A stretch of 64,000 nucleotides of DNA from Narthecium ossifragum (taxonomy: Eukaryota > Streptophyta > Magnoliopsida > Dioscoreales > Nartheciaceae), in the NCBI GenBank assembly GCA_963920575.1, contig OY986970.1, positions 19,723,274 through 19,787,273 of the forward strand. The letters run 5' to 3'. A program made the position numbers and the translations under genes. A model generated the notes under the pieces. That model did not search any database. It was not told the origin of the DNA and was given only the letters and a program-made list of their open reading frames with translations. This document shows, one piece after another, positions 340 through 57,425 of the stretch (its first letter is position 1; each line of letters begins with the position of its first letter).

Positions 340-500
340 GAGATCGATCTGGATTGCTAATGAGATCGATCTGGCCTTGCTAGCCAGATCGATCTGACAT
401 GCTTTGGAGATCGATCGCTTAGTGCAGAAGGTTTTTGAGCTGTTTGCGGCTCGAGAGCGATCGATCGCTCATTGGAGCGATCGATCAGACTCGTGATCAA
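340..500. repeat. GATCGATC palindrome array
   Basis: About six copies of AGATCGATCT or GCGATCGATC-like palindromes lie within 160 bp in the U3 part of the LTR. Neighbouring copies face each other and could pair as hairpins, for example GAGCGATCGATC and its partner near 465-490. The array is kept in the 3' LTR at 4478-4640. Confidence 0.85.
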
Positions 501-2095
501 ACAGTCGGTGGTTTATTTTTCTCTTCCGCGATGACGGCAGCCGGCCGTCGCTCTCCCTTGTCAGAAGGGTAGGACTTTCCCTCCCCTCCCCCAGCTTTTC
601 CCCGCCTTCGCCGGCTTTCCCCGGCTTTACCTTTCTCTTCTTTCCCTCTCTTCTCTTCTCTTCTTCTTCTTTCTTTCTCTTCTTCCCGCGGTGCTCTGTT
701 TCTTCCCTTTACCGCCGGCGAGCTTCTTCTTCGCCGTTCTCCCTCCTCCGACCATCAAATTGGGTGTTCTAAAGCTTGTTGGATTCGTGGCGACGAGAGG
801 AACATAGCTGAGGTGGTTTGGAGCCGTGTTGGTGACGGGTTTGCGAGGGATCAACCGAGGAATGCGCTGTTGGGTAGGTTCTTCTACCTACATGTGTTCT
901 TTAGTGGGTTTCGCGTGATCTAGCCGTTGGATCTGCTGATCTTCTTGTTATTAGATGCATGTTCCTAGTAGAATAACTGATTTAAGTTTCATGTTAATCG
1001 GTTGAGATTTGAGTAGGTTTTATGCATGATTAAGGTCAGATTTTCTGGTTTTCTGCTGTTCTTGAAGAACAGCCGGCTTGCGGCGTGTTTTCCGGCCGGT
1101 ACGTGTATGATCTTGGCTTTTGCTAAACATAAGAGTTGTAGATCTTGTCGTTAGCTTTCCATTCCATCTTATTTCGTATTTGTCCGATTTTCCTACGAAT
1201 TGTTATGATTTTCGCACTGGAGGGCTGCGTTGCAGCAATTAATTAGAAAGTTAGTTTTGAGTAGTGGTTTTCATTAGCATTTTCCCGTTAATCCAACCGT
1301 TGGATGATTCTCGATTTTGGATATGTTGATCCATACATGTAGCTATACTGGTGGCTAAGTTGGATCTTGAATCCGACATCGTTTGGACATCGGATCGACC
1401 AGATCAAATAGCCTCTTGTAGAGAACATTTGGTGTTTTAAATATATTATTATATGTCCAATTATAATATTATATTTCTACTGTTCATCAGCGGTTTTCGA
1501 GGTTGCTTCCCGTTGCAGGAGTCCGCGGTTGAGGGTCGTGGTACCGTCGTAAAGCCGTGACCCGCTGCGGATCGGCTGGCATATATGATATTTGCCATAC
1601 TGTTGCATGCCTATCTCCTGTTTGTGTATGTCATAGCATGCATTGTTGAATTGTGTATTAGTTGCATTGGTTAGGCCGTGGGTGATCCTTGGGTCGCCGT
1701 CCCGAGGCTGGAAGCTCGGACTTAACCCTAGGACCGGGGTTGGGTAGTTTGGACCCGGTTGGAATTGTGGTGTCCAGTCGATTCAATGATAGGCTTAGAT
1801 GACTGGTACACTGGTTACTTGATGATTGTAGAGGTCGTGTCGGCCTCGAGTCGGAGGCTGAGGTGTAGGCGGTGTTCCACTATGTCGACTCTTGAGTGGT
1901 GGAAACGGCCCCCTCAGCGGTGCCATTTCCCGCATGCAGTGTCGGTTCCCTGCATGTGAGTCAGCAGTGTTTGTTGAGCTTACTGTGTGCTGCTCCTGGG
2001 CACCAGGGACACGCGGTGGGGTTATGGCACCCCGGTATACACCCAGATCTTACTTGAGGACGACACTCTTGCGTTCCCCCTTCCTTCTGTGTGAC

Positions 2096-2160
2096 GTAGT
2101 GTAGATCCCTACTGAGCTTAGTGCTCACACCTACCCGGGCTGCGTTTTGTAGGTGCAGGC
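2096..2160 (+). other. Conserved LTR hairpin block
   Basis: This block contains a stem TGAGC / GCTCA around a short loop (2113-2127), then CTACCCGGGCTGCG and a GCAGG-type tract. The same order of motifs recurs in the other Tekay-like LTRs of the window (6269-6333, 28695-28760, 41588-41652, 45922-45990, 61722-61790 and, inverted, 11491-11560 and 57976-58040). Its role is unknown. Position in the LTR would fit an R/U5 RNA element or 3'-end signal, which is inference. Confidence 0.7.
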
Positions 2161-2524
2161 GTCAGTTCTTCCTCCGTGGCCCCTACCGGGCAGTTGGTCA
2201 GCAGTGCGGCGGCGCCTGGTGGACTTTGAGAGGTTGCGATGTTTACTGCTTTTACCATTATGTTAGTTAGTCTCCTACGGGAGAAATGTTGTATTTTGAA
2301 TCTTCCTCTCTCCGATGATTTGTATATTAAGCACTTTGAGTTTTAAATCTGTAGTTTGAGGCTTATTAAATTATTGTTGTTTTAATTGAGGGTGTTTTTG
2401 GTGAATTGTTAGGGAGACCAATAGGTTAGAGGGAACCCTCGCCAGCTTTGTTTTCCGCGTTTTGTAGGTTCCGGTTCGCGTCGCCCGGCCCGGTTGGGCT
2501 TTCGCGGGTCGGGGCGCGACAGCT

Positions 2525-2536
2525 TGGTATCAGAGC
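2525..2536 (+). promoter_or_regulatory. Primer-binding site (initiator tRNA-Met)
   Basis: TGGTATCAGAGC lies three bases after the 5' LTR end. It is complementary to the 3' end of plant initiator tRNA-Met, the usual primer of plant gypsy and copia elements. Confidence 0.93.
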
Positions 2537-2723
2537 ATAGGTTGTAGATCCCAGGGTTTAGGATCAGGTTTCGGTTGAGATTGAGGGTGGAATGGGTTAG
2601 TTCTATGTCTAGAACATCCGTGCATGCTCTTCTGTGATGTGATGTGCTTTTCGCTTCCTGTTTGTACTGGGTGTTTTGCGGTTTCTGACAAGTGGATGCT
2701 TGTTATTTCTGGTGGGGGTGCAG

Positions 2724-4028
2724 ATGCCGAGGAGTCGGGCACGTCGTTCCGTTGTGAGTCGTGGCCGGTCGCGTGTGCAGCGCACCGCCCGACAGGCTCC
2801 AGTAGCCGCGACAGCTTTGCCCCGAGACTCTGCACCCGCACTAGAGATGAGTGTTGAGTTCGCGGTGGGGGAAAACGCCTCTCTTTTCGCCGAGAGGGTT
2901 CTTCCGCCACTTAGCGAACACACTGTGACGGCAGCGGTGATCACCTTCCAGGAGCTGAACCCGCCCAGGTTCAGCGGTGCTGAGGGTGATCCGGCAGTAG
3001 CGGACGACTGGCTGTGAGGAGTCAGTCGTGTCCTCGACGCTTTGTTCATCCAGGATGACCGGGTCAGACTGGCGGCGTTCCAGCTCGACGGGGACACTTT
3101 GGACTGGTGGAGTGCTATCTTGACCGTTAGGAGCGGGAGTGACCCCTCGTGGGACATGTTCCGTTCGTCTTTTCTCGACGCGTACTTCCCTCAGAGTGCG
3201 CGTTAGGCCTTGGTTCGGGAGTACCTTAGCATCTCCCAGGATACGCAGTCGGTGGCACAATATGCAGCTAGGTTCACCAGGCTCGTCAGGTTCGCCGGTC
3301 CAGTGGCGAGCGATCCTCTCACCAGAGCGCGACAGTTTCAGTGGGGGCTATGGCCCGAGATCAGGCTTCTGATGGCGGCGCGGTTTGCTAGCGCTCTCAG
3401 GGAGGTGGTGAACTGTGCCTTGTCAGTGGAGGCCGTACTGCTGGAGACAGGGCTTAGGGCAGTTCCACCAGTGTTCCCCTCGAGGTTAGGGTGCGCCGGC
3501 CAGCCGCAGCAGGCTCTGGGTAGAGTAGGACCGTGGCGGGGGGAGGCCCGTTCACGACGCCATCATCCCTATCAGCACCATCCAGAGGACGTCAGCGGAG
3601 TCAGTCCAGAGGCAGAGGACGGAGCGAATGACGAGGATGATCCCGATCAGCAATTCTCAGAGGATGATCAGCTGGAGCAGTCAGTCGGTGAGTACGACGA
3701 GGACCAGCCCCTCTCGGAGGCAGAGGAGGAGTTCGCGGAGGATGATCCGGACGAGCAGTTTCCGGAGGAGGAGCCTCAGCAGGATGCGTTCACAGGGTTT
3801 GGTCAGATCCAGCAGGCAGAGCAGAGACCTGTGACGTGCTTTGAGTGCGGGCAACTGGGGCATTATCGGAGAGATTGCCCCTTGTGGAGAGCGTGGACTA
3901 GGCGGGACAGGATGCAGAGAGGCCCAGTGCCGGGTTCGTGCTATCAGTGTGGCCAGCTGGGTCACTTTCGCCGAGAGTACGCGACGCTGCGAGGCGGAGG
4001 CCGTGGCAGTGGCAGTAGAGGCCAGTAG
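2724..4028 (+). pseudogene. gag (capsid/nucleocapsid) pseudogene of gypsy element
   Basis: Gag forms the particle in which the element RNA is reverse transcribed. From ATG 2724 one frame runs to TAG 4026-4028 and is broken only by TGA at 3015-3017 and TAG at 3204-3206. The reading contains the gypsy capsid signature (FSGAEGDPAVADDWL, FQLDGDTLDWW, QYAARFTRLVRFAG) and two zinc knuckles near 3838-3880 and 3940-3981. The first is a standard CX2CX4HX4C; in the second the last Cys is Tyr (3978-3980). Between capsid and knuckles is an acidic Asp/Glu/Gln segment (about 3620-3780) with imperfect repeats of a DPDxQF unit, absent from the related gag at 29316. The ATG matches the start of the related gag (MPGSRA versus MPRSRA). 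Confidence 0.9.
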
Positions 4029-4195
4029 AGGCGGCTGGGTTGGCTTCAGCATCAGCATCACATCAGCAGGTACCCTTTTACCGTAGTATCCTGATAGGCA
4101 TTACCGCTTTGTAGTATCCTGATATGCGTTGTTTTCTTTTCCGAGCCCTACCCTTATCGGATCTCGAGACGAGATTTCCTTTAAGGGTATTAGGA
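4029..4195 (+). other. 3' untranslated region and polypurine-tract region
   Basis: This noncoding spacer lies between the gag stop and the 3' LTR. Just before the LTR is the sequence TTTAAGGGTATTAGGA, which occurs in nearly the same form before the LTRs at 39527 and 56470. It is the candidate plus-strand priming region. There is no pol remnant in the spacer. Confidence 0.7.
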
Positions 4196-6694
4196 TGTGA
4201 GGACCCGTCCCTCTACTCCTGGGTCGACCGGCTGGGTCGGGCCCGTGGCTCGTTGGTTTGCTTCGCGTCGAGCGCGCGATCCGGTGGATCGTATTGTTTC
4301 TTGGACCACAAGGGCAATTTGATAAATTGCGCCTTGTTGGTTTGTTTCACACCCGCGTGTACACACACTGACCTTGTATGTGTTAGTGTTTGTTTAGAAT
4401 GGCTAGGTGAACCTGAGGTCGGAAGATCTGAGCTTGGTCTTGAGTTTTAGCCCAAGTTTGCCTTTCTGGACGAAAGAGATCGATCTGGATTGCTAATGAG
4501 ATCGATCTGGCCTTGCTAGCCAGATCGATCTGACATGCTTTGGAGATCGATCGCTTAGTGCAGAAGGTTTTTGGGCTGTTTGCGGCTCGAGAGCGATCGA
4601 TCACTCCTTGGAGCGATCGATCAGACTCGTGATCAAACAGTCGGTGGTTTATTTTTCTCTTCCGCGATGACGGCAGCCGGCCGTCACTCTCCCTTGTCAG
4701 AAGGGGAGGACTTTCCCTCCCCTCCCCCAGCTTTTCCCCGCCTTCGCCGGCTTTCCCCGGGCTTTACCTTCCTCTTCTTTCCCTCTCTTCTCTTCTCTTC
4801 TTCTTCTTTCTTTCTCTTCTTCCCGCGGTGCTCTGTTTCTTCCCTTTACCGCCGGCGAGCTTCTTCTTCGCCGTTCTCCCTCCTCCTCCCATCAAATTGG
4901 GTGTTCTAAAGCTTGTTGGATTCGTGGCGACGAGAGGAACATAGCTGAGGTGTTTGGAGCCGTGTTGGTGACGGGTTTGCGAGGGGTCAACCGAGGAATG
5001 CGCTGTTGGGTAGGTTCTTCTACCTACATGTGTTCTTTAGTGGGTTTCGCGTGATCTAGCCGTTGGATCTGTTGATCTTCTTGTTATTAGATGCATGTTT
5101 CCTAGTAGAATAACTGATTTAAGTTTCATGTTAATTGGTTGAGATTTGAGTAGGTTTTATGCATGATTAAGGTCAGATTTTCTGGTTTTCTGCTGTTCTT
5201 GAAGAACAGCCGGCTTGCGGCGTGTTTTCCGGCCGGTACGTGTATGATATTGGCTTTTGCTAAACATATGAGTTGTAGATCTCGTCGTTAGCTTTCCATT
5301 CCATCTTATTTCGTATTTTTCCGATTTTCTTACTAATTGTTATGATTTTCGCACTGGAGGGCTGCGTTGCAGCAATTAATTAGAAAGTTAGTTTTGATTA
5401 GTGGTTTTCATTAGCGTTTTCCCGTTAATCCAACCGTTGGATGATTCTCCATTTTGGATATGTTGATCCATACATGTAGCTATACTGGTGGCTAAGTTGG
5501 ATCTTGAATCCGACATCGTTTGGACATCGGATCGACCAGATCAAATAGCCTCTTGTAGAGAACATTTGGTGTTTTAAATATATTATTATATGTCCAATTA
5601 TAATATTATATTTCTACTGTTCATCAGTGGTTTTCGAGGTTGCTTCCCGTTGCAGGAGTCCGCGGTTGAGGGTCGTGGTACCGTCGTAAAGCCGTGACCC
5701 GCTGCGGATCGGCTGGCAGCGGTGGGTAGTACCGCTGCAGCGATCCGGTTGACTTATATGATGTTTGGCATACTGTTGCATGCCTATCTCCTGTTTGTAT
5801 ATGTCATAGCATGCATTGTTGAATTGTGCATTAGTTGCATTGGTTAGGCCGTGGGTGATCCTTGGGTTGCCGTCCCGAGGATGGAAGCTCGGACTTAGCC
5901 CTAAGACCGGGGTTGGGTAGTTTGGAACCGGTTGGAATTGTGGTGTCCAATCGATTCAATGATAGGCTTAGATGACTGGTACACTGGTTACTTGATGATT
6001 GTAGAGGTCGTGTCGGCCTCGAGTCGGAGGCTGAGGTGTAGGCGGTGTTCCACTATGTCGACTCTTGAGTGGTGGAAACGGCCCCCTCAGCGGTGCCATT
6101 TCCCGCATGCAGTGTCGGTTCCCTGCATGTGAGTCAGCAGTGTTTGTTGAGCTTACTGTGTGCTGCTCCTGGGCACCAGGGACACGCGGTGGGGTTATGG
6201 CACCCCTGTATACACCCAGATCCTACTTGAGGGCGACACTCTTGCGTTCCCCCTTCCTTCTGTGTGACGTAGTGTAGATCCCTACTGAGCTTAGTGCTCA
6301 CACCTACCCGGGCTGCGTTTTGCAGTTGCAGGCGTCAGTTCTTCCTCCGTGGCCCCTACCGGGCAGTTGGTCGGCGGTGCGGCGGCGCCTGGTGGACTTT
6401 GAGAGGTTGCGATGTTTACTGCTTTTACCATTATGTTAGTTAGTCTCCTACGGGAGAAATATTGTATTTTGAATCTTACCCTCTCCGAGGATTTGTATAT
6501 TAAGCACTTTGAGTTTTAAATCTGTGGTTTGAGGCTTATTAAATTATTGTTGTTTTAATTGAGGGTGTTTTTGGTGAATTGTTAGGGAGACCAATAGGTT
6601 AGAGGGAACCCTCGCCAGCTTTGTTTTTCATGTTTTGTAGGTTCCGGTTCGCGTCGCCCGGCCCGATTGGGCTTTCGCGGGTTGGGGCGCGACA
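4196..6694 (+). repeat. 3' LTR of gag-only gypsy element
   Basis: This 2,499-bp copy is collinear with 60-2521. It includes the longer version of the segment at about 5718-5757, which contains its own short inverted repeat around GGTGGGTAGTACCGC. It ends GGGGCGCGACA immediately before target duplication CACCT (6695-6699). Confidence 0.95.
4478..4640. repeat. GATCGATC palindrome array
   Basis: This is the 3'-LTR copy of the array at 340-500. The palindromes are retained with a few substitutions, for example CGATCGATCA in place of CGATCGATCG near 4594. Confidence 0.85.
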
Positions 6695-10824: not shown

Positions 10825-12476
10825 GGGGTAGAGGGCTCATGAACAAGAGGGGAACAAGAAGAGAAGAAGAGGAGACACGAGCTAGGAGGCACGTGAACGA
10901 GAGGAAAGAAAGGCCTTGAAGAAGACGAAGTTAGGAGTCGAAAGCTGAAGAAAAAGGCGCTTGAAGCAAAGAAAGCTAAAGGCGTGGTCAAAAAAGAAGA
11001 AGCCATTTTCACCTTTGAAGAATCCAAGGCGGAAGATCGAGGAAGATCGACATCAACAACGAAGGTGAGGATGCAGGCCTTTGCCTCCACCCAAGATCCT
11101 TCTATCCCCATTCTTCCCCTCTTTTCTCATTTTTTTCTTGTTTGGATGTAATGGGACTTTATGTCGCACCCCGACCCGCGTAGGCCCAACCGGGCCGGGC
11201 GATGCGAAGCAGAACCTAACTTACTGCGGAAATTTTGGCGAGGTTTCCGTCTAATCGTAGTGGTTACCCTAGCAATTCTTAATCATCCTGTATTATACAA
11301 TCATTCACAACTCAAAGACTGAAACTGATATATTACAAAGCCCCAAAACAGGGAAATTATACATTTATCACTATCGTAGGAGACTATCTATAACAAAAGG
11401 TAAGACTGTGATCGCCGCTCCTCAAGCACCGCCAGATGCCGCCACGTCATCAAACACCGGCCCGATAGGGGCGACCAAAGAAGAGCTAGCGCCAGCACCT
11501 GCAAAACACAGCTCAGGTAGGAGTGAGCACTAAGCTCAGCAGGGACACTACACTACGACACTCACAAGGGAGGGAAAACAACAGTGTCGCCCTCAAGCAA
11601 AGGCTGGGTGTACACAGGGGTCCCATAACCCCACCGCGTGTCCATGAAAGAAGGCCTCAGTCATGGTCCCCAGCCGAACTGGTCCCATACTGGGTCGCCC
11701 TCAGCGAGGCAGGAAACCGGCACTGCCATCTCACTAGCAGGAAACCAACACTGTTAGGCGGGCAACTAACACCGCTGAGTAGGCCCCCCCTACCAAAGAG
11801 ACAGTGAACCAGACACCGGCTACACCTCAACACTCGGCTCGAGGCCGACACGACCTCTAAACATCAAACCACATGTATTCAGGTCATCTAACCCTATCAT
11901 CGAAATCGACTGAATACTACAAATCGAGTCCTGGACCAAGCTACCCGCAACGGTCCTAGAGCTAGATCCGGGCTACCCGAAAACCCCGGATCGGCAATGC
12001 CCTACAAAGATGCAACTAATGCACAACACAATGCATGCTATGGACCTGCGCAGGATAATACAGTTAAACATGCAGCAGTATGTGATGATATAAATAACAA
12101 GGTCTGGGCACGGCACCCTGCCGGCCCGGGGTGTTGAATAGGTAAATAAGGTCTAAGGACTGCTACAGTGGTACCCCCACCAACTATCAACAGTCCACCA
12201 CAACACCTGCACTGGGAAGCAGCGCCGTAAACAACATCTCATAGATATCACAGATAAAGCCCTCGGCGCACGCCGGCATGCAAGGCTAGGGAAAGCTGTA
12301 GGGCTACTCGCCCGTTTATTCTAAACATCCCGGGAGCCATCACGCCCCCAGTTCACCATTGCTCTATTATAGGGCTAACATGCTTAAACATATGTACAAG
12401 GTATAAAGCAGTAAGAAAATTGACATACCAAGCCCCGCGGGCAAAAGCCATGAAAAATCCTCTCTGCTACTAAAGG

Positions 12477-12790
12477 ATCGATCTTTTCCTAAGAAAATAT
12501 CGATCTTTTAAGTAACAGTGAGCTATCCTCACTGTCGAGCTAAAGAAGATCGATCCTTCCTCCCAGGAAGATCGATCTCTCTCGAGACAGAGGGTACCCT
12601 TCTCGTCGCGCCAAGAAAGATCGGTCCTTCCTCCCAGGAAGATCGATCCTCCTCGCGACGTAGGGTAACCATGCTACCCAAGACCCAGGATCGATCTTCT
12701 CCAAGCAGAGGATCGATCCTTCATCGGGCGCAGCATGAACAACCCAAAGGGATCGATCCTTCCTCTAGAAGGATCGATTCGGATGGGTTC
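12477..12790. repeat. GGATCGATCC palindrome/hairpin array
   Basis: About eleven GATCGATC-type copies lie in roughly 310 bp. Many form facing pairs such as AGATCGATCCTTCCT followed by AGGAAGATCGATC, able to fold as hairpins. In LTR orientation the array lies downstream of the TATA box. Confidence 0.88.
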
Positions 12791-13120
12791 TCCGGCGTAC
12801 TTCCGGCGAGAAATACCGCCGGAAGATACATCCAAACTTAACAAAACTCTGGGATCTGATAGATCAAGATCCCACGAGTCCAAAACCGGTGAAATCACGG
12901 AAAACCAACATGTATATCAAGAAATCTAAGCATAAGAACATAATCAAACCGGAAAAACCAAAAACCCGGAAAAGATTGTAGGTAGGATCCCTACCTAAGC
13001 AAGAGCAGCTTAAATCCAAGCAGCTAGGCCTTGGATCGTCATCAAACGCCTTCAAAAATTGCAAGATCTGAGCTCAGGTCTCTGGATTTCAAAAGGATTC
13101 AAGGAAGAAAGTTTCGTCTG

Positions 13121-13128
13121 CTTTATAG
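13121..13128 (-). promoter_or_regulatory. TATA box of solo LTR
   Basis: The plus strand reads CTTTATAG, so the minus strand reads CTATAAAG. It lies between the upstream array (13150-13255) and the downstream array (12477-12790). Confidence 0.7.
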
Positions 13129-13149
13129 GCAAACGAACCGACCTATGAA

Positions 13150-13255
13150 TGATCGATCTTTCCCTAAGGAAAGATCGATCCTTCATGACGATCACAGTTG
13201 ACTTTCTGGCACCATAAAGATCGATCTTCTAGTAAGGAAGGATCGATCCTTTAGG
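13150..13255. repeat. GATCGATC array upstream of TATA box
   Basis: Four palindromic copies (GATCGATCTTTCC, AAAGATCGATCC, AGATCGATCTTC, GGATCGATCCTT) lie in about 105 bp in the U3 part of the solo LTR. Confidence 0.85.
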
Positions 13256-13705
13256 TGTAGAAAGCTAAACTTGGGCTAGAACTTAAGCCCAACCCCGGAT
13301 CTTTCGATCCCGGGTCCCACTAACCATTCTAGCCAAACATTACCACAAACATGGTCAGTGTGTGCACACGCGAGTGTGAAACAAGCCGACAAGGCGCAAT
13401 TTACCAAATTACCCTTGTGGTCCACGACGAGCCACAGGAGTAGAGGGACGGGTCCTCACACTTTAAGCCCTGAATCCTTAATCATGGGTCTTCTATGGAA
13501 TGTAAATGATGAGTTGCCAATCTCATCTTGGGTATACAGTTCCTAAACAAAAAGAGGATCTGCAGCTTGAGATAATATTGGGAACTCAGGAGTGTTGTTC
13601 CTACAATCCCCTACCACCACATATGTCAAAAATGACTTTTGATCACAATAAAAATGAGCCCAAATCTCGTCCCCTCGAGATTGCGAGTTTATTGCCGAAC
13701 AAAGA

Positions 13706-14657: not shown

Positions 14658-16166
14658 TGATGTGCTGTCGCAGGCACTCAAAAATAAAACCAATACTCTT
14701 TAAGATAAATGTAGTAGTGCGAGTACGAGTCGATCCCACGAAAAGTGTTTAGCCTAGTTTTATGCTTAGTGAACAAAGATGGGGGGTTTTAAACGTGAGG
14801 AAAACAGTAAAGAAATAATCTAAAGCGAAGAATTGAATTAAATCAAGAGAACCAACCTTGGTCTGAGTCAACATCCACCATCGAAATCCAACAACTGATC
14901 ATTGATGCAAGTATATATCAATTCATACCATGAATATTCACCGTTCGAATTAAATTCAAATCTCTCCTCGATCATAGTTAATTAGAAACAAGCGATCTAA
15001 TCAACCCTAACTACCAAACAACCTAAGACACGCGCTGTAGATTTAATTTAGTAGCAGCCTTAAGAATAGGGAGATCGATAAAGCTAAACAACACAAGCAC
15101 AAGCGGTTGCATTTAATCTAGTCGAATATTCTTCCTAAGATCTATTAATCTCTGAAACGCAGTAAATCAATAGATCTCAGTTACTTCGCAGATTAGAGGG
15201 ATAAACAATTATGGATTTGATATCCAACCTAGCATTAGATCATAATGAATAATAAACTAGTAGGCCTCCTAGCAATTAGACAAGACAATCATGAATATTT
15301 AATCTCATAAGAACATTCAATACTCAAGTATAAACTGAACAATAAAAATAGATTAGTTTCATTGATTCCGAGGTTTCAGTCTCCTCGAACAAGAATTAAG
15401 GTTTAGCCACGCAAGGCCATCAAGAACAATCCAATCCTTTAAAGAAGAAAGAAGAACCCTAGAAATATCAAAGAAATAGAAAGGAGCAACCAAAAACCTT
15501 TAGAATTCGTCCCCCTTAATCCCTAAAACGAACCCTATTTATAGCCCATAAGTTTCCCATCCTCGGATTTGATCTGAACCGTTGAATTTCTTCACTGGGA
15601 AAGTAGGATCGATCCCTCTATGGGTGTCGGATCGATCCTTTGCATCGAAATCTCTAATTTCTGGCTACGCCCGAGTCGGATCGATCTTACCAGGGGTGTC
15701 GGATCGATCTTATAAGTAGGATGGATAGTAGGATCGATCCTACTGTGTACAGCTAAAAAGTATGTGTTCTGTTAGGTTTCTGCATAGACGGATTGATCCT
15801 ATTCCTATGGAAGGATCGATCGGACTTTTCAGAGTATTTACTGTTCTGCCATCCAGACTGCGCCATCGGTACTAAAATTACCATAACTTCCTCAAGGAAA
15901 CTCGGAATCATGAACCTTAAAATTCTCCAGAAACTAGACTTTAAGAGCTTTCCAACCATATATGGAACATCATCTGGTTCTTCATGAGCAGGTATAGTTT
16001 AATCTTTAAAGTTGATCCATATACTCTTTTCAGCTTCTTTTCGAACTTAAGGACTTCAATTGCATCCTAAATCAAAATATAAGAATAATGAGTGAATTTA
16101 GGTATCAAATAAGCACATGAGACTAAGTATTAAGGGATAAAAATATAACATTATGCATCATCATCA
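14658..16166 (-). mobile_element. Lone LTR, OTA-like gypsy family (sister of 16942-18373)
   Basis: The plus strand starts TGATGTGCTGTCGC and ends near CATCATCATCA; on minus it is TGATGATG to CATCA. It shares a long segment with the solo LTR at 16942-18373 (around 15895-16040 versus 18076-18220, including AAACTAGACTT and AGCTTTCCAA). The leading segment has the CGAGTCGATCCCAC motif also seen at 31700 and 16996. Flanking bases CTTCT and CTACC do not match exactly, so the target duplication is unproven and the right boundary could move by 3-6 bp. Confidence 0.75.
15604..15832. repeat. GGATCGATCC palindrome array
   Basis: About seven GGATCGATC-type copies lie in 230 bp (near 15607, 15634, 15677, 15703, 15731, 15789 and 15820). 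They sit immediately before the segment shared with the sister LTR, which has the other palindrome type (GACGGTCGAC) at the same place. Confidence 0.85.
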
Positions 16167-35855: not shown

Positions 35856-36028
35856 AATTCGATTTTCTAAAGAAAATCACCGAAAATCATAGAAAAATCG
35901 AAAAAAACATGGAAAAAAAAACCTAAAAATCAAAGAAAGTTTTTCAAAGCTAAGGAAGAATCATAAAACTGGGTTGCCTCCCAGGGAGCGCGTAATTTTA
36001 CGTCTTTCACTCGACGTCCATAAAAGGA

Positions 36029-36910: not shown

Positions 36911-37092
36911 TGGTGAATATTGTGCTAACAGTCGACAGAGCAGTGTATTTCAGCATATTAACCGAATTTCTTGCATTTCTTCTCAAAGCATGATTAAACC
37001 TAAAATCAACTAACAAGCTATCAAATATAATTACTCTAGGCATAACAAAGCTAAGTTAAGGGGTTGAATCATGAACATTTAGTGACTTATCA
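36911..37092 (-). repeat. 5' LTR remnant of OTA-like element
   Basis: 182 bp nearly identical to 32860-33041, ending TTATCA before target duplication TCTAC. It retains only the outer end of the LTR. Confidence 0.9.
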
Positions 37093-37097
37093 TCTAC

Positions 37098-39400: not shown

Positions 39401-39526
39401 CTTTCTTGTTGTGGGCGTTGGCGCCCCTAGTTGTAGCCTTGTTTGTGTAGATAGGCCTAGTTGTTTCTTTTTCCCCCGGCTTCAACCTTGAATTTCGGGA
39501 CGAAATTCTTTTTAAGGTTGTTAGGT
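39401..39526 (+). other. 3' untranslated region with polypurine-tract region
   Basis: Contains AATTTCGGGACGAAATTC and TTTTTAAGGTTGTTAGG just before the LTR. The first motif is characteristic of the end of Tekay-type plant elements and is also visible before the LTRs at 4196 and 56470. Confidence 0.7.
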
Positions 39527-41752: not shown

Positions 41753-41783
<31 letters not shown>

Positions 41784-42015
41784 AACTTTCGAGGATTTTG
41801 GAATCATGTATGATATCATTACCTTGGGAGTATTAGAATGGAATTTTGTAACTGTACAACTTGATGTTATATAAATTGAATATCTGTTCGCCTCTGGAAT
41901 AAATTTGTTTAAATTATCCGTCTTTTCCGCTTTGTATCGCGCCGATTTGAAGCTGAATAGTGATAGGAACCCTCATGCCCCGTCCTGGATGGGTTTTCTG
42001 AGTCGGGGTGTGACA
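39527..42015 (+). repeat. 3' LTR of Tekay-like element
   Basis: 2,489 bp, collinear with 26894-29112. Differences include a 19-bp tandem duplication of GGAGGATCGGAGCTCGATC near 39757-39790, a longer palindrome array (40371-40768) and a longer TA microsatellite (41752-41778). Confidence 0.95.
40371..40768. repeat. GACGGTCGAC palindrome/hairpin array, long form
   Basis: About eight hairpin units in 400 bp, against three in the 5' LTR. The outer units match the 5' LTR array; the inner units (about 40425-40690) are extra. Typical unit: CGGTCGATCGGTGCATCGACC. Confidence 0.88.
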
Positions 42016-44124: not shown

Positions 44125-44329
44125 AGTGAGGACCCGTCCCTCTACTCCTGTGGCACGTTGTGGATCGCAAAAGCGAATTTGGTAAATTACGCCTTGTCGG
44201 CTTGTTTCACACTCGTGTGTGCACACACTGACCATGTTTGTGGTAATGTTTGACTAGAATGGTTAGTGGGACCCGGGATCGAAAGATCTGGGCTTGGGCT
44301 TGAGTTCTTGCCCAAGTCTAGCTTTTTGG

Positions 44330-44420
44330 ACAAATCGGATCGATCTTCTCTAGCTAAGAGATCGATCTTCTTGTGCCAAAAAGTCAAGCTGAGTTCGTCA
44401 TGAGAGATCCGATCCCTCAT
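44330..44420. repeat. GATCGATC array upstream of TATA box
   Basis: Copies such as CGGATCGATCTTC and GAGATCGATCTTC lie in the U3 part of the solo LTR. Confidence 0.75.
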
Positions 44421-44436
44421 AGGTCGGTTCGTCCGC

Positions 44437-44444
44437 CTATAAAG
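44437..44444 (+). promoter_or_regulatory. TATA box of solo LTR
   Basis: CTATAAAG preceded by a GATCGATC array and followed about 150 bp later by TAGGTAGGGATCCTACC. Confidence 0.72.
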
Positions 44445-44794
44445 TGGACTCGGCGGATATCCTTGAATCCTTTTGAAATCCGTGGATCTGGAGCTCAAAT
44501 CTGCCGATTTTGAAGGAGTTTAAGGAAGATTCAAGGCCTAGCAGCTAGGATTGAAGTTGCTATTGCTTAGGTAGGGATCCTACCTACATCTCTTACGGGT
44601 TTTTGGAGTTTTTCCAGTTCGTGATTGATCTTTTGCTTAGATCTGTAGAAAAACATGTTTGTTTGCTGAGATTTCACCGGTTTTGGACTCGTGGTCCCTT
44701 GATCTACCAGATCCCAGAGTTTTAGGGGGTTTGGTAGGGTTTTTCGGCGGTATTTCTCGCCGTCCGGTCGCCAGAGAACCCATTCAGATCTATC

Positions 44795-45030
44795 TCCTTT
44801 GAGGAGAGATCGATCCCTGTGGGTTGGTCATGCTGCACCCGATGATGGATCGATCCTCTGCTTGGAGAAGATCGATCCTGGGTCTTGGGTAGCATGGTTA
44901 CCCTACGTCGCGAGGAGGATCGATCTTCCTGGGAGGAAGAATCGATCTTTCTTGGCGCGACAAGAAGGGTGCCCTCTATCTCAAGAAAGATCGATCTTCC
45001 TAGGAGGAAGGATCGATCTTCTTTAGCTCG
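44795..45030. repeat. GGATCGATCC palindrome/hairpin array
   Basis: About nine copies in 235 bp, several in facing pairs such as GAGGATCGATCTTCCT and AGGAAGAATCGATC. It corresponds to the array at 12477-12790 in the sister LTR. Confidence 0.87.
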
Positions 45031-45921
45031 ACAGTGAGGGAAGGCTCACTGTTATAGAGAGGCTTTTTCATGGTTTTTGCGCGCGGGGCTTGGTATGTCG
45101 ATTTTCCTTACCGCTTTATACCTTGTACATATGTTTAAGCATGTTAGCCCTATAATAGGGGCAGTGGTGAACCGGGGGAGTGATGACTCCCGGGATGTTT
45201 AGAATAAACGGGCGGGTAGCTCTATAGCTTTCCTTAGCCTTGCATGCCGGCGTGCGCCGAGGGCTTTATCTGTGATATTTGTGAGCTGTTGTTTGCGGGG
45301 CTGCTTTCCGATGCAGGTGTTGTGGTGGACTGCCGGCAGTTGGTGGTGTTACCATTGCAGCAGCTCCTAAACCTTACTTACCTGTTCACCACCCCGGGCC
45401 GGCAGGGTGTCGTGCCCAGACCTTGTCATTTATAACATCACATAATGTTGCATGTTTGTCTGTATTACCCTGCGCGTGCTCATAGCATGCATTGTGTTGT
45501 GCATTAGTTGCATCTGTGTAGGACGTTGGCGATGGGTTGTTCGCCAATCCGGGGCTTTCGGGTAGTCCGGATCTAGCTCTAGGACCGTTGCGGGTAGCTT
45601 GGTCCAGGACTCGATTTGTAGTATTCAGTCGATTTTGATGATATGGTTAGATGACCTGAATACATGTTGTTTGATGCTTAAAGGTCGTGTTGGCCTCGAG
45701 TCGAGTCCTGAGGTGTAGCCAACGTCTGGCACTCTTTGACTCTCTGAGTGGGGGTGTGCCCACTCAGCGGTGCCTTGTCCCACCAGTAGTGTTCACAATC
45801 CTGCTGTGAGTCCGCAGTGCTGGGAGGCTGCGTTCTGGGACATCCGGTGGGGTTATGGGACCTCTGTATATATCCAGGCTTTATTTGGGGGCGACACTGT
45901 TGTGTTCCCTCCCTTGTAAGT

Positions 45922-45990
45922 GTCGTAGTGTAGTGTCCCTGCTGAGCTTAGTGCTCACTCCTACCCGGGCTGCATTTTGCAGGTGCTGGC
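45922..45990 (+). other. Conserved LTR hairpin block
   Basis: Same order as 2096-2160, with TGAGC-TTAGT-GCTCA stem-loop and CTACCCGGGCTGCA. Confidence 0.68.
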
Positions 45991-46322
45991 GCTAGCTCTT
46001 CTTCGCTCGCCTCTACCGGGCCGGTGTTTGGTGACGTGGCGGCGTCTGGCAGTGCTTGAGGAGCGGCGATCTCAGTTTTACCTTTTTGTTATAGATAGTC
46101 TCCTACGGGAGTGATAAATGTATAATTTCCCTGTTTGAGGTTTTGTATTATATTACAGTTCCAGTCTTTGAGGTTGTGATTGTTTGTATAATACAGGATG
46201 ATTATGAATTGCTAGGGTAACCACTACGATTAGATGGAAATCTCGCCAAAATTTTCGTAGTAGGTTAGGTTCCGGTTCGCGTCGCTCGGCCCGGTTGGGC
46301 CTACGCAGGTCGGGGCATGACA

Positions 46323-50350: not shown

Positions 50351-51360
50351 TGAATGTTGAACTTTTTTTTAATATGAATCGATAAATGAAAAACCTAGGT
50401 AGGAGGAGTCTAAGATTCTTGAATGCTTGTAAATAAAATGAAAAGCAAATTACACAAGTAAATAAAGGATGAGATGAGAGTTAGAGAGAGTGCACCATAT
50501 ATATAGTGGTTCGATCCAACTCTTGGTTTATGTCCACTTCACTCAAGATCCTCACTGAGATTCTACTACTAGAAAATCCTTTTACAAGCTTTCCAACAAG
50601 CTTCCGGGTGCTTGACAACCTTACAATCCTCTCCCAAGACCTCTTGGGTATCCTCCAAGTCTCTCTTGACTTCTGTCAAAGTCTACTTCACAACTTGAAG
50701 TAGTTTTATAAAGGTTAAAGCTCTCAAGGATGATGAAATGAAAACTAAACTTGCTAAAATGTATACCAATAATCCCCTTTGGTCCTTTTACAAGTTTACT
50801 GCATCTTCCCTCTTATACTTGAGCTTCAAAGCCTCAAAAAATAACTCCCAATGGCTATTTTGCTTTTCTCCAACGGCTATATTTTTTACTATGCGCACAC
50901 TGGCGGTCGACCCTCACATCGTCCGCCACATCGACCGTCGCACTCAAAATATAGCTAGGATCAACTACCACATCAACCTTCAAGCTTCACGGTCGACCTT
51001 CGCATCAATCGTCACATCGATCGTCAGCCTCTGTGAGAAAATGATGCATTCAGGGTCAATGCCTCGTTCGACCGTCGCTCTTTTAAATTAAGTCAGCATA
51101 GTCCATGGTCAATCGGTGCATCGTCTGCCAGCCTACAACATTTAAAAACGAATTTCACTCTAAGCCAATACTTAGCCAAAGTATAAAACAACCAAATAAC
51201 CTCCGCGGTCGATCTGTTCATCAACCATCGCATCGACCGCGAGTACAAAAAATATCTTAAACATTGAATTTAACGAGTTCCAAATTAAGGTATATAATAT
51301 CAAATCATTGTTTATCATCATACACATATTAACATCATAAAAACAAGGTTAGGATCAACA
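50351..51360 (-). repeat. 3' LTR of copia element
   Basis: 1,010 bp. Plus strand TGAATGTTGAAC to TAGGATCAACA. It contains a GGTCGAC-type array at 50898-51245. A minus-strand TATA is not obvious. Confidence 0.9.
50898..51245. repeat. GGTCGACC palindrome array in copia LTR
   Basis: About ten GGTCGAC or ATCGACCG-type strings in 350 bp, for example GGCGGTCGACC, CACATCGACCGTC, CACGGTCGACC, GTTCGACCGTC and CGCGGTCGATC. It is the same motif class as in the gypsy LTRs although copia and gypsy LTRs are otherwise unrelated. Confidence 0.82.
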
Positions 51361-52691
51361 ATCATCCCCTTTTTGATGATGGCAACCTTTTCAATTGTGA
51401 TGAGAAACATCAAAGGCTCTCCCTTAATCCATGCATCCATTTTTCACATGAACTATGTTCTAAAATGAAATCTTTTGATGCATACAGGTCATATGTCACT
51501 ATGAGGATATAATAAGCTTGATTAGAAGTTTAAAAACATGAAAATTCAAAACTTGACATATGCAACTCTTTGTATAGAAATAAGACATATGACTTTGAGC
51601 AATGATCGTACAACATTCAATTATATAAATATGTATCATTCAATTTAGAAAAGAAACTTTCAATTAAACATTCAAAGGCTTCAAGTAAATGCAAAATTAT
51701 AAAGTTTCAAAACTTTCAAAACTAAAATATCAACAATTTAGGGCTCATTTTTTGGCATCACAATCCTTCTACATCGAAATCCTTCTCCCCTTTTGACATC
51801 ATCAAAAAGCAATATAGGAGGGGATAAAAAAAAGTTAATATCATAGTCAATTATCAAGTTTAACAAGGACTTTTAAAAATTAGATTAAAATCTTTTGAAA
51901 ACTGAAAAGTTATTAAACTTCACAAGCACTTGAAAGTTATGCACAAAATAGATAGTTCTTGGTTGCCTTGCAATCCCTTAATTTGGTTGCATATTTAATA
52001 GACTTTGATAGTAAATATACATTTTCATCTTAGCATTTTTACTTTGGGCATTCATTAAACGTATCAAGCTTGCCTTGCAATCCAATGTTAAAGACACTCT
52101 CTTAGTTTCAACACAATCTCATTTCCACAATATCCACATATAAACAAGCTAAACAAGATATTGAACTTTATTTACATTTCAAAAACAATATAGGATTCAA
52201 AATTTCCGACCATTAGATGTTTACAACATAAACCAACATTAAAATTAACATCTTCCATTCCAAACATCAAATTACCAAAGATGCATTTCAAGGCTTTACA
52301 AAGTCAAAATTTCCAACTATTTGTTTCCAAACAAAAACAACAAAAGTTTAAAACCAAAATACAAGCTTGACAAGTAGAAAACCCAAAAGATGAAATGTAG
52401 GCATTTGTTCTTTAAATCATTCAAATTGATATTTCATCCATAGGAAAAATATTTTTGACAAAATACATTTTAAATAACTTGAAGTTCATCAAGCATAGCC
52501 AAAATATAAGAACATTCATCATATTAGGCTTCCTTAAATCATTTGAGTTAAGTTGAGAAAGAAAATGCTAAAAAAAATCACAAATCTTGTAAAGGGAGCA
52601 ACAAGTTTGAACACCAATGGAGTATATCATTTAATAACTATTTGCATACCTACATTTTCATGAAAGATTGAGAGCATATTCTTGTCCCCCG
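51361..52691 (-). other. Noncoding internal region of copia element
   Basis: Begins (minus 3' end) with the polypurine-tract region at 51361-51380. The rest is AT-rich with no pol reading, so pol was lost or never present in this derivative. Confidence 0.75.
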
Positions 52692-53700
52692 TCATATGCC
52701 TTGAGCATCCATTAGCAAGTTACCACTATTTTCCTTTGAATTGGTCTTAACCTTGGATCTCAAGCATTCCTTCAAAAATGAATCAAGTCTTGATTTTTGG
52801 TACCCAAATCTTTTTGGGTCCATTAACGTTAGTTTATTTTGCATATCGGAGGTAGTATTTCTAAATATAGTATATTCATATTGAGAATCCTTAAGTTCTT
52901 TTCTAAGTGAGGCATGATCATTACTAGATGTCTCAAATATGCATTCATTTTCCTTTTCTAAGATGTTAATTCTATGCATGACATCTTGTTTTTCTTAAGA
53001 AATTTGAAGTCACTAGCTAAGGAATGATAAGCTTCAAATAATTCATCAAAGGCAAGCTTATGATTTACCTCATCATCTTGTTTTTCTTCATCTTCAAGTG
53101 CTCTCAAGCAAAAGTGGGCATTCTCTTGTTCACCATTGCCTCTCTATAAGTTCATTTCATGAGTCATGAGAGAGCCCAGGAGTTCGTCAATGGATAGGTT
53201 GGATAGATATTTTGCTTCTTCAATTTCCGCCACCTTGGGATCCCTTGATTTAGGTAGACAACTAAGGATCTTTCTCACAATCACATCATTAGCATATACT
53301 CTATCATAAGATTCAAGTGTTTTAAGAATATTGGTAAAGCGAGTAAACATTTAACTAATTGTGTTATCATCTTTCATGCAAAATAATTCATAATCATGAA
53401 CAAGCATGCTAATTTTAGACTCTTTTACTTTGTTGGTTCCTTCATGGGTGTCCTCAAGTTTGTCCCAAATTTCTTTAGCCGATTTGCATGCTGAGATTCT
53501 ATTGAACTCATTAGGGCTTAAGGCACAAAATAGATAGTTCTTGGTTTTGGCATTAATTTGCAAGTTCTTCAAATCGGTTGGGGTATATTCATCATGGGAA
53601 TGAAAGGACCATCTTCAATGACCATCCATGCCTTATAATTCATAGATTGGATAAAAATCTTCGTTTTATCCTTCCAATAGGTATAGGTATGTGGATTGAC
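52692..53700 (-). pseudogene. copia gag pseudogene (SIRE-like)
   Basis: Minus-strand readings in order: YWKDKTKIFIQSMNYKAWMV (about 53650-53690), LQINAKTKNYLFCALSPNEF, SAKEIWDKLEDTHEGTNKVK, KISMLVHDYELFCM (to 53351), then after a stop MFTRFTNILKTLESYDRVY and VRKILSCLPKS, ELLGSLMTHEMNL (to 53144). A later frame (52979-52692) has a coiled-coil-like, charged reading. These are typical of the gag polyprotein of SIRE-type copia elements. The zinc knuckle is not visible. At least one stop and one frameshift disrupt it. Confidence 0.87.
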
Positions 53701-53764
53701 CTACTATATTTTCCATATCAAAATAGGATCCTTTAGGGTTGTTAAACGTTGAATTAGAGACCGG

Positions 53765-53776
53765 GCTCTGATACCA
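53765..53776 (-). promoter_or_regulatory. Primer-binding site of copia element
   Basis: Plus strand GCTCTGATACCA, minus strand TGGTATCAGAGC, complementary to initiator tRNA-Met. It lies about 25 bp inside the LTR edge placed at 53802. The edge is supported by the target duplication. Confidence 0.85.
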
Positions 53777-53801
53777 ATTGAAAGTCCAAAAGGAGGGGGG
53801 G

Positions 53802-54780
53802 TGAATTCGACCTTTTTCAATATAAATTTTTAAATGGAAAACCTAGGTAGGAAGAGTTTGAGATTCTTGAATGCTTGTAAATGAAATGAAAAGAAAATTA
53901 AACAAGTAAATAAAGGGTGAGATAAGAGTTAGAGAGAGTGCACCAAGTTTATAGTGGTTCGACCCAACTCTTAGTCTACGTCCACTTAACTCAAGGTCTT
54001 CCTTGAGGTTCTACTAGTTGAAAATCCTTTTACAAGCATTCCACCAAGCTTTTGGGTACTTGGCAACCTTACAATCTTCTCCCAAAACCTCTTGGGTATC
54101 TTCCAAGTCTCTCTTAGATTTTCTCAAAATCTACTTCACAATTTGAAGTAGTTTTACAAAGGTTAAAGATCTCAATGATGATGAAAATGAAAAATAAACT
54201 TACTAAAATATATACCAATAATCTCCTTTGGTCATTTTACAAGTTTACTGTATCCTCCATCTTATACTTGAGCTATTTTCCTTTTCTCCGACGGCTATAT
54301 TTTTTACTCTGCGCACACTGGCGATCGACCCTCGCATCGTCTGTCACATCAACCGTCGCGCTCAAAATATAGCTCAAATCAACCGCCGCATCAACCTTCA
54401 AGCTTCGCGGTCAACCTTCACATCAACCGTCAAATCAACCGTCAATCACTGTGAGGAAATGATGCTTTCAGGGTCGATGCCTCGTTCGACCGTCACTCCT
54501 TGAAATTAAGTCAACATAGTCCGCGGTCAATTGGTGCGTCATCCGCAGGCCTACAACATTTAAAAATGACTTTCTCTCCAAGCCAATACTTAGCTAAAGT
54601 ATAAAACAACCAAATAACCTCCGTAGTCGATCCGTGCATCGACCATCACATTTACCGTGAGTACAAAAAAATATCTTAAACATTGAATTTAACGAGTTCC
54701 AAATTAAATGATATAAATATCAAATCATTATTTATCATCATACACATATTGAGATCATCAAAACAAAGTTAAGATCAACA
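53802..54780 (-). repeat. 5' LTR of copia element
   Basis: 979 bp, collinear with 50351-51360. It carries the matching palindrome array at 54318-54660, in which many CG dinucleotides have become CA or TG. Confidence 0.9.
54318..54660. repeat. GGTCGACC palindrome array, decayed copy
   Basis: Counterpart of 50898-51245. Several TCGA cores are changed to TCAA (for example ATCAACCGTC, GGTCAACC), consistent with C-to-T decay at CG sites. Confidence 0.8.
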
Positions 54781-55690: not shown

Positions 55691-56470
55691 GAGCACGTTC
55701 CCTTGGTGGAGTTCGCCTACAACAACAACTACCAGTCCAGTCTTGGAGTAGCACCTTTCGAGGCGTTGTACGGTAGGCCGTGTCATTCCCCAGTTTGCGG
55801 GACAGAGGTTGGAGAGGCTCACTCACCGGTCCAGACATCGTCAGGAGGTCGTCAGAGAGGTTAGTGCAGATCAGGCAGAGGCTTCTGACGGCTCAGAGCC
55901 GGCAGAAGAGCTATGCAGATCAGAGGCGACGACCGCTTGAGTTCGCAGTTGGCGACATTGTGTTCCTGCGGGCAGCACCGTACATATGGTCTGTCAGGTT
56001 TGGCAATGGGGGCAAGTTGGTTCCGAGGTTCGTCGGATCGTTTGAGATCCTAGAGAGGGTCGGCGTGGTAGCCTACCGCTTGGACCTTCCTCAACACATG
56101 TCTGTTGTGCACCCGACTTTTCACGTGTCGATGCTGAGGAAGTACCACCCCGACCTGTCGCATGTCATCAAAGTGGATGACATCGAGCTTGAGTCAGGCA
56201 CGACGTTCGTTGAGCAGCATGTTCGAGTACTTGACCGGAGGGATCAGGTCTTGCGGGGCAAGACAATTCCCTTGGTCAAGGTACTGTAGAGGCACAGAGG
56301 CGTCGAGGAGATGACCTAGGAGTGCGAGGCACACGTGCGGTAGGGGAATCCGCACTTATTTCCTTCTCGAGGTAACTTTTGTCCTGCCTTCTAGTGTAGC
56401 TATTTCTTTTGTTTCCGAGCCCTACCTTTATCGAATCTCGGGACGATATTTCCTTTAAGGGTATTAGGAT
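55691..56470 (+). pseudogene. Integrase C-terminal fragment with chromodomain-like tail
   Basis: Starts within the integrase core at [20 protein letters not shown] and [14 protein letters not shown], changes frame near 55800, then GPDIVRRSSERLVQIRQRL, SYADQRRRPLEFAVGDIVFLR, VHPTFHVSMLRKYHP and VLDRRDQVLRGKTIPLVKVL. Stops at 56287-56289 and 56317-56319 replace what are Trp codons in the related copy. All three DDE residues are absent. The final bases (56430-56469) include CGGGACGATATTTCC and TTTAAGGGTATTAGGA before the LTR. Confidence 0.88.
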
Positions 56471-56654
56471 GTGAGGACCCGTCCCTCTACTCATGTGGCT
56501 CGTCGTAGACGGCAAGGGCAATTTGGTAAATTGCGCCTAGTCGGCTAATTTCACACCCGCGTGGGCACATGTTTGGCTAGAATGATTAGTGGGACCCGGG
56601 ATCGAAAGATCCGAGCTTGGGCTTAAGTTTTAGCCCAAGTCTAGCTTCCTGCAA

Positions 56655-56775
56655 AAGACGGATCGATCCTTCCTTGCTAGAAGGATCAATCGGTCAATGC
56701 CAGGAAGTCGGATCGTTGAGAAGGATTGATCCGTCTTTCGATCATGGTTCCTCTTGGACGGATCGATCCTGCTTA
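56655..56775. repeat. GATCGATC array upstream of TATA box
   Basis: CGGATCGATCC, AAGGATCAATCG, GGATTGATCCG and CGGATCGATCCTG in the U3 part. Confidence 0.75.
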
Positions 56776-56790
56776 AGTCGGTTCGTTTGT

Positions 56791-56798
56791 CTATAAAA
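56791..56798 (+). promoter_or_regulatory. TATA box of LTR
   Basis: CTATAAAA at the same relative place as in the sister LTRs. Confidence 0.7.
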
Positions 56799-57139
56799 CG
56801 GACGTAACCTTCTTCCTTGAATCTCTTTTGAAATCCGAGTTCTTGAGCTGAGATTTTCTGGATTTCGAAGAGGTTGTGGACGATCCAAGGCCTAGCAGCT
56901 GGGATTGAAGCTGCTATTGCATAGGTAGGGATCCTACCTACATTTTTTTCGGGTTTTTGGATGTTTTTCCGGTTTTTTGTGATCTTTTGTTTAGATCTTG
57001 ATATATACTTGTTAGATTATAGTATTTCCACCGGTTTTGGACTCGTGGTCCTTCGTACTACTAGATCCCAAGGTTTTGTGGAATTTGGAGGAGTTTTCCG
57101 ACGGTATTTTCTCACCGGAGGGTTACCGGAGAACCCATC

Positions 57140-57425
57140 GCGATCGATCCTTCTGTGAGAGGGATCGATCCTTCTTTGTTAGTCATGTTGAACTCGAGCA
57201 GGATCGATCATTCTCGGGTGAGAACGATCGATTCTTGTGCCTTGGGTAGCATGGGATCCCCCTCGTCGCGAGTAGGATCGATCGTCCCTTGGGGGGAAGG
57301 ATCGATCCTCCTTGGCACGGCAGTGAGGATGTTCCCTATCGCGTACTTGGCACAATATGGAGAGATTGTTCTCTGCCATTAGAAGGATCGATCTTCCCTT
57401 GGGGGGGAGGATCGATCCGTCTACG
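57140..57425. repeat. GGATCGATCC palindrome/hairpin array
   Basis: About ten GGATCGATCC, AACGATCGATTC or AAGGATCGATCC-type copies in 285 bp, matching the downstream arrays of the sister LTRs. Confidence 0.87.

Follow-up and report, generated by a model that had tools for sequence, protein, structure and literature searches.

TCGA-centred palindrome arrays in the long terminal repeats of Tekay-like, OTA-type and Sirevirus-like retrotransposons of Narthecium ossifragum

We analysed a window of 64,000 nt of Narthecium ossifragum DNA (contig OY986970.1, 19,723,274-19,787,273, forward strand), in which long terminal repeat (LTR) retrotransposons carry arrays of short palindromes with a TCGA core. 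A preliminary description had placed dense arrays of this kind at 13 stretches in Tekay-like Ty3, OTA-type (Ogre/Tat/Athila) and copia elements. We found the described content at all 13 and the same carriers (Table 1); the word dense has to be qualified for the copia element C, whose two arrays (50898-51245 and 54318-54660) are decayed and retain only 3 and 2 intact RRTCGAYY, respectively. The arrays fall into two classes. Class I arrays, carried by E2, O2, Int35 and C, are of the CGGTCGACCG type (the CGGTCGACC-type arrays), with units that read CGGTCGATC/GATCGACCG. Class II arrays, carried by E1, D, F, G and O1, consist of facing GATCGATC dyads. Loci numbered with L are relatives or stretches outside the window that were compared with window elements.

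Table 1. Palindrome arrays and carrier elements in the window (TSD, target-site duplication; PBS, primer-binding site; PPT, polypurine tract; fold z is relative to dinucleotide shuffles).
Feature	Position (nt)	Strand	Details
Class II array, position A, E1 5' LTR	340..500	+	6 RRTCGAYY; fold z -6.3
Class II array, position A, E1 3' LTR	4478..4640	+	6 RRTCGAYY; fold z -5.3
Class II array, position B of D	12477..12790	-	fold z -9.3; copies aligned
Class II array, position A of D	13150..13255	-	last unit 30 bp upstream of CTATAAA
Class II array, O1	15604..15832	-	6 RRTCGAYY; last unit 70 bp upstream of TATAAATA
Class I array, O2	17828..18035	-	last unit 59 bp upstream of TATAAATA, sense strand; 29-nt spacer at 17905
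Class I array, E2 5' LTR	27717..27872	+	shorter than 3' LTR copy
Class I array, E2 3' LTR	40371..40768	+	29-nt spacers at 40549 and 40653 on minus strand
Class I array inside Int35	35515..35855	-	downstream of integrase; 29-nt spacer at 35661
Class II array, position B of F	44795..45030	+	fold z -6.0
Decayed class I array, C 3' LTR	50898..51245	-	29-nt spacer at 51060
Decayed class I array, C 5' LTR	54318..54660	-	unit inspection, folding
Class II array, position B of G	57140..57425	+	8 RRTCGAYY; fold z -6.1
E1, Tekay-like Ty3	60..6694	+	LTRs 60-2521, 4196-6694; TSD CACCT; self-alignment 96%
E1 PBS	2525	+	TGGTATCAGAGC
D, solo Tekay-like LTR	11162..13460	-	TSD CTTTA; bears arrays A and B; self-alignment, boundaries
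O1, O-family (OTA-type) LTR sequence	array 15604..15832	-	flank 83% identical to O2
O2, solo O-family LTR	16942..18373	-	TSD CTCCT; self-alignment and boundaries
E2, Tekay-like	26894..42015	+	LTRs 26894-29112, 39527-42015; TSD TAACA; OTA-type element nested inside
Int35, nested OTA-type	31614..37092	-	left LTR ~31614-33562; right side truncated; 89.7% match to L021
Integrase core PF00665 in Int35	36032-36949	-	Pfam scan
F, solo Tekay-like LTR	44125..46322	+	TSD GGACC; self-alignment, boundaries
C, Sirevirus-like copia	50365..54780	-	gag PF14223 at 53144-53614; polyC stretch, PBS, PPT
G, Tekay-like 3' LTR	56470..62122	+	solo LTR H interrupts; self-alignment, boundaries
H, solo Tekay-like LTR without array	57536..60957	-	3.4 kb; TSD TACGG; inserted in Tekay-like LTR G

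E1, E2, D, F, G and H are presumably Tekay-like, a name given for their LTR ends, TGTGAGG..GACA with small changes, which are typical of that lineage. The O family and Int35 are presumably OTA-type, a name given for a PBS of the form TTGGCGCCGTTGCCGGGG, which is typical of that group. The sense strand and PBS of the O family were taken from a two-LTR relative on C1 in which the array matches lie 8.4 kb apart; this relative has the PBS TTGGCGCCGTTGCCGGGG and an aspartic protease domain (PF13650). The PBS behind the OTA-type name was read in relatives L021 and L080, and L021, the relative of Int35, also has Retrotrans_gag (PF03732). The Tekay-like and OTA-type carriers have Ty3-type reverse transcriptase (RT), integrase (INT), gag or SH3_Tf2-1 domains, or an OTA-type PBS; SH3_Tf2-1 (PF24626) lies in pol of G, and no chromodomain match was found among the open reading frames (ORFs) scanned against Pfam. 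In C, we found a copia gag (PF14223, E 2.5e-13), the PBS TGGTATCAGAGC and, reading by eye, the PPT AAAAAGGGGATGAT/TGTTG and a polyC stretch CACCCCCCCTCC near the LTR end; no RT or INT domain was found in the six short ORFs scanned, and the internal region is only ~2.4 kb. The hallmarks given for Sireviruses in the available portions of Bousios et al. 2010 (PMC2829016) are a PPT close to AGGGGGAG AT/TG and a polyC integrase signal ~20 bp before the LTR end. The gag, PPT and polyC of C fit these hallmarks, and C appears to be Sirevirus-like.

We found 107 RRTCGAYY in the window compared to 15.1±4.0 in 30 dinucleotide shuffles of 1-kb blocks; 80 of the 107 lie inside the 13 array stretches (3,289 bp in total). 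TCGA-centred palindromes of at least 8 bp number 72 compared to 15.0±2.7 after shuffling. Beyond the window, genome-level figures come from pattern counts and from 200 kb sampled across ten contigs of the 379-Mb genome, as 20 stretches, each 10 kb long and set at round coordinates. The genome has 13 large contigs, which may mean n=13. When all 256 eight-base palindromes were ranked in this sample against an order-2 model, GATCGATC came top (83 copies against 2.9 expected, or 29-fold); TCGA-cored palindromes pooled were enriched 2.63-fold, and the remaining 15 cores ranged from 0.78- to 1.75-fold. Clusters of at least three RRTCGAYY occur 14 times in the 200 kb, spread over 8 of the 20 stretches, and 13 of the 14 are within or adjoin sequence that matches window Tekay-like or O-family LTRs (the exception is L010:69-182). 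Across the genome, GATCGATC-N0-12-GATCGATC is found at 9,379 places compared to 206 for the reversed pattern, and GACGGTCGATC-N5-ATCGACCGTC at 1,742 + 1,783 places compared to 0.

To assess homology between arrays, we left the units in place, shuffled the spacers on both sides and made 1,000 shuffles per pair, on window arrays only. In all six pairs among the class I arrays of E2, C, O2 and Int35, the real arrays aligned better than 1,000 of 1,000 shuffles. We prefer this test to an earlier, weaker version that included loci preselected for GACAGAG and shuffled one side only, in which E2 versus O was not significant at 19/100 and E2 versus Sirevirus stood at 1/100, and we acknowledge the discrepancy. 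Spacers of 29 nt recur in O2, Int35 and C and twice in E2. Together with one more O-family spacer (L015), they have a mean cross-family identity of 15.2/29 compared to 7.0±0.6 when shuffled (0/20,000; rotation control 1/20,000), and Ty3-type carriers compared with the Sirevirus reach 15.6 against 7.2±1.0 (0/20,000); these counts overstate the evidence, because the 29-nt spacers were chosen after shared letters had been noticed (14 of 55 mixed-length rows). The distance from ATCGACC to ACGGTCGATG is quantised: among the first 100 listed of 4,730 + 4,848 genome places, it is 29 nt in 55, 41 nt in 29, 20 nt in 8 and another length in 8. Relative to its carrier, the module has sense orientation in Sirevirus C; in E2, O and Int35 it is antisense. 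Judged by these alignments, the class I arrays are not independent and are shared by descent across Tekay-like, OTA-type and Sirevirus elements.

For class II, we found no homology between the Tekay-like arrays and O1, since D, F and E1 stand at 173, 246 and 450 of 1,000 shuffles; in the earlier one-side-shuffled test, Tekay A versus O1 stood at 6/100. Between the classes, 15 of 16 pairs stand at 308 or more of 1,000 shuffles, and E2 versus O1 stands at 16/1,000. The preliminary description had held that the families otherwise share no sequence at the arrays and that common ancestry explains the sharing poorly. For class I, both statements fail, because four window elements carry a homologous module and common ancestry explains the sharing; for class II, Tekay-like and OTA-type arrays are not alignable and have no detectable homology. 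A single transposon-like repeat inserted into every family, which it had named as the finding that would overturn it, is only half borne out: the class I module is shared and the class II arrays of Tekay-like and OTA-type LTRs do not align.

Within the O family, the two classes replace one another. The flanks of the class II array in L013 and the class I array in L071 share 92.6% identity on one side (363 bp) and 90.9% on the other (317 bp); between them lie ~306 bp (L013) and ~326 bp (L071) with no BLAST alignment at E 1e-12. The array in L015 is a mix of class I and class II. Judging by these flanks, either array class can fill the same slot between near-identical sequences. In L076 (200-820), an F-type Tekay LTR is present with its initial 276 bp (88.8%), which run into an Int35-type class I array and its flank; this chimera has its junction at the array, and recombination is evident.

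The slot in the O family lies near a TATA candidate. In all ten stretches examined (O1, O2, L010, L013, two in L015, L027, L071, L072 and L075; four class I, five class II and one mixed), the last unit is 59-93 bp upstream of TATA[AT]A on the sense strand, and this distance holds in arrays as short as 179 bp and as long as 393 bp, measured between the outermost units. TATA[AT]A is rare (19 in 16,555 bp scanned). Because the ten stretches are mutually related, they count as one case and not ten. Measured from the LTR start, the first array unit is at 347-367 in O2, L013, L015b and L071, at 284 in E1, at 214 in position A of D, at 829 and 849 in E2 and at 125-139 in C.

Unit counts and the pairing of neighbouring units bear out the TCGA core and the facing arms of the preliminary description. 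When 103 adjacent unit pairs from the window and the 20 sampled stretches were compared with re-paired controls, the bases between the units showed excess complementarity at positions 2, 3 and 5 (z 5.6, 7.0 and 6.4) and none at positions 7-10. Arm-to-arm complementarity exceeds the self-complementarity of the units, which are nonetheless self-symmetric. Against dinucleotide shuffles, 11 of the 13 arrays have a fold z of -3.6 to -9.3, and the decayed copia arrays have -2.8 and -1.5. In 25 control stretches, fold z has a mean of -0.72 (sd 1.70) and a minimum of -4.76, which places the weakest four among the eleven, at -3.6, -3.6, -3.9 and -4.5, within the control range. Since the arms are complementary beyond the motif and most arrays fold strongly, we consider hairpins a fair description.

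Covariation of the arms, a check that the preliminary description had proposed, proved weak within families. For the F and E1 arrays, we collected 20 further copies each from 40 scored of 3,514 and 2,590 first-look candidates. In the F array (23 rows including window copies), two-sided changes affect 7 of 111 predicted pairs, mainly two neighbours of one stem: in this array B hairpin, columns 81-97 are UA in 11 and CG in 11 of 23 rows, and columns 82-96 are CG in 10 and UA in 9. In the E1 array (22 rows, mean column identity 95%), none of 96 pairs has a two-sided change. Among 35 oriented arm pairs, we counted 23 G.T and 18 A.C mismatches, which suggests no strand-specific RNA constraint in this small sample, where a modest bias would be missed. 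Array length changes as well: the alignment of the E2 5' and 3' LTR arrays has 261 gap columns, with the LTRs otherwise ~96% identical, a difference that is contraction or expansion of the array.

Several readings were tried and dropped. A masked-spacer comparison put 27 of 28 family pairs at or below z 2.5, and its mask of 16 nt per unit removed too much; its value of z 5.9 for the O2 family versus L010a was disregarded because the alignment was mostly masked letters. KNOX/TALE (TGACAG) and W-box readings of the spacers were abandoned, as the T is missing from most Tekay spacers. Elsewhere in the carriers, a 185-bp direct repeat with 96% identity (32857-33041 and 36908-37092) is probably the remaining start of the truncated LTR of the nested OTA-type Int35, and a TA dinucleotide tract at ~41750-41780 in the E2 3' LTR is longer than its 5' LTR counterpart. 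The window also contains remnants of a CACTA-type transposase on the minus strand at 47363-49225 (Transposase_21, PF02992; Transpos_assoc, PF13963).

The preliminary description knew of no described function for such arrays. A precedent has been described, the palindromic RM boxes of Sirevirus LTRs, which in the accessible parts of PMC2829016 begin 200-400 bp from the LTR start and precede a conserved TATA, with consensus CGGTCGACCG in Vitis and ACAATCGATTGT in Tnd-1 (its Table 3), and are termed Sirevirus-specific and absent from classic copia. Like these RM boxes, the arrays described here are clustered short palindromes, the TCGA core is in both published consensuses, and element C is itself Sirevirus-like. 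Unlike them, they extend as a homologous module to Tekay-like and OTA-type elements, and the class II unit GATCGATC lacks the CGG-CCG signature that class I CGGTCGACCG has, yet is the most enriched 8-bp palindrome. Only C is a Sirevirus carrier, and we do not file the Tekay-like and OTA-type arrays as RM boxes because their carriers have Ty3-type domains or an OTA-type PBS. RM boxes number at least eight copies per element in that source, and their clusters define CpG islands; here, RTCGAY units per array run from 4-6 (C and E1) up to 15 (E2 3' LTR). The O family, E1 and position A of D start within 200-400 bp, and E2 and C start outside it.

In maize, as far as the available sections of Martin et al. 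2023 (PMC10760457) go, Sirevirus LTRs have palindrome clusters with strong predicted folding, as here, and Ty3/RLG elements are generally without such a peak, unlike Narthecium, where Tekay-like and OTA-type LTRs bear 13 of the 14 sampled arrays. The Sirevirus palindrome CACCGGACNNNGTCCGGTG is also the top Helitron motif in those sections, and sharing of palindromes across classes is thus hinted at in print. Heat-responsive elements in Brassicaceae COPIA LTRs, recurrently gained and mostly species-specific across copia families (PMC5059998), resemble the arrays as host transcription-factor sites in LTRs, which is what we would expect the arrays to be; they differ in being heat-shock factor sites within copia, and the abstract describes no module common with Ty3. 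A non-exhaustive search of titles and abstract openings, which covered few subscription papers, found no publication on TCGA palindromes common to copia and gypsy LTRs. Elsewhere in print, GATCGATC occurs as the Chicago junction string (PMC5288721) or as part of a primer.

Taken together, the arrays are real, abundant, LTR-linked, modular and replaceable. Our best reading of the sequence is that they would be a cross-superfamily extension of Sirevirus RM boxes, with a known architecture and core and with new carriers, a shared module and a second, unrelated module in the slot. As to what they do, we lean towards exchangeable activator cassettes in U3, upstream of the promoter, made of TCGA-centred DNA dyads and read by a putative host protein; a shared host-factor site was among the explanations first proposed, and we keep it as the best. 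A host DNA-binding protein that prefers the TCGA dyad would use the units as sites of upstream activation (or of anti-silencing), and a family that gained a cassette would be transcribed better and spread. Class I would have moved from one family to another, with recombination or template switching as the probable route, and class II may have arisen separately or diverged beyond recognition. We favour DNA over RNA because the units are self-symmetric, G.T and A.C mismatches are about equal, and the module is sense or antisense depending on the carrier.

A number of observations weigh against the activator-cassette explanation. Among eight Tekay position-A copies, a TATA is 30-77 bp downstream in only four (D, F, G and L025), and none was found in the scanned stretch of the other four (both E1 LTRs, L020 and L076); on predicted TATA boxes, the O-family arrays and half of these Tekay arrays can thus be called promoter-proximal. 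The TATA candidates of C are at 115 and 201 bp. In E2, and at position B in D, F and G, the TATA candidate comes before the array, and the Int35 arrays are internal to the element. A unit scan of the Tekay-like solo LTR H (57536-60957) found no TCGA cluster, so not all Tekay-like families need an array. CG sites have changed in similar proportions inside the arrays and elsewhere in the LTR (E1, 2/20 versus 16/127; E2, 4/26 versus 19/94; C, 25/40 versus 4/7), and old insertions are thus not protected.

Palindromes of maize Sireviruses have reportedly been treated together with small RNAs in a 2016 study by Bousios. An RNA hairpin signal, in which transcribed arrays fold for stability, dimerisation or packaging or give rise to siRNAs through dicing by the host, a fate proposed for those palindromes, is rather unlikely in our judgement. 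It would account for fold z values down to -9.3, for facing arms that are complementary beyond the motif and for the two-sided switch in one array B hairpin, the E2 and position-B arrays would be transcribed, and maize offers a precedent in the portions seen of PMC10760457; set against this, wobble pairs have no strand asymmetry, compensated pairs are few in both alignments while many other changes resemble CpG decay, the O-family arrays are upstream of the TATA box, and pairing alone needs no palindrome in each arm. The arrays could also be a neutral by-product, lengthening by template switching or slippage in reverse transcription and spreading by recombination without sequence-specific function. 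The unstable array length in E2, the lack of excess conservation in LTR pairs and the evident recombination (the L076 chimera and the L013/L071 replacement) are what this would produce; it does not predict that non-homologous class I and class II arrays have the same promoter-proximal slot and TCGA core, nor that GATCGATC tops all 256 palindromes, and we regard it as unlikely.

We hold it to be quite improbable that the arrays recruit an element-encoded protein for the removal of silent marks, like the VANC targets of Arabidopsis VANDALs, which the available text of PMC10398659 describes as fast-diverging noncoding tandem motifs recognised by protein. Both sets of repeats are short, noncoding and of fast turnover; VANDALs have their own VANC binder and are not LTR retrotransposons, and an element-encoded protein would be uneconomical here, since the carriers have unrelated coding regions. 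Pfam scans of ORFs gave only retrotransposon, CACTA and marginal matches, with no search aimed at a VANC gene. An assembly artefact we reject almost entirely: GATCGATC is identical to the Chicago junction 8-mer (as given in part of PMC5288721), and ligation junctions of DpnII/Chicago-type proximity libraries might contaminate an assembly, but dozens of aligned copies have the arrays at the same LTR offset and include CpG-decayed derivatives, the arrays occur in both E1 LTRs with complementary flanks, and class I units differ from GATCGATC. Clipping of reads at this junction string would cut genuine reads here (83 copies in 200 kb).

Returning to the activator cassettes, a wider version, which we offer tentatively and rate below even chances, is that one TCGA-dyad host factor would be a transcriptional gateway for much of the LTR load, with Ty1 and Ty3 elements having converged on it through class II and swapped a cassette through class I, and with LTR promoters drawing on a common pool of modules. 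Studies of LTR promoters usually stay within families; a module shared between copia and Ty3 elements, together with a swap in the same slot, would show that regulatory cassettes are exchanged across superfamilies. The same TCGA core at the same TATA distance in unrelated modules would point to a common host factor. The array classes are natural swaps in one LTR slot, with which one could ask directly whether palindromes of the Sirevirus type serve as activator sites or trigger silencing.

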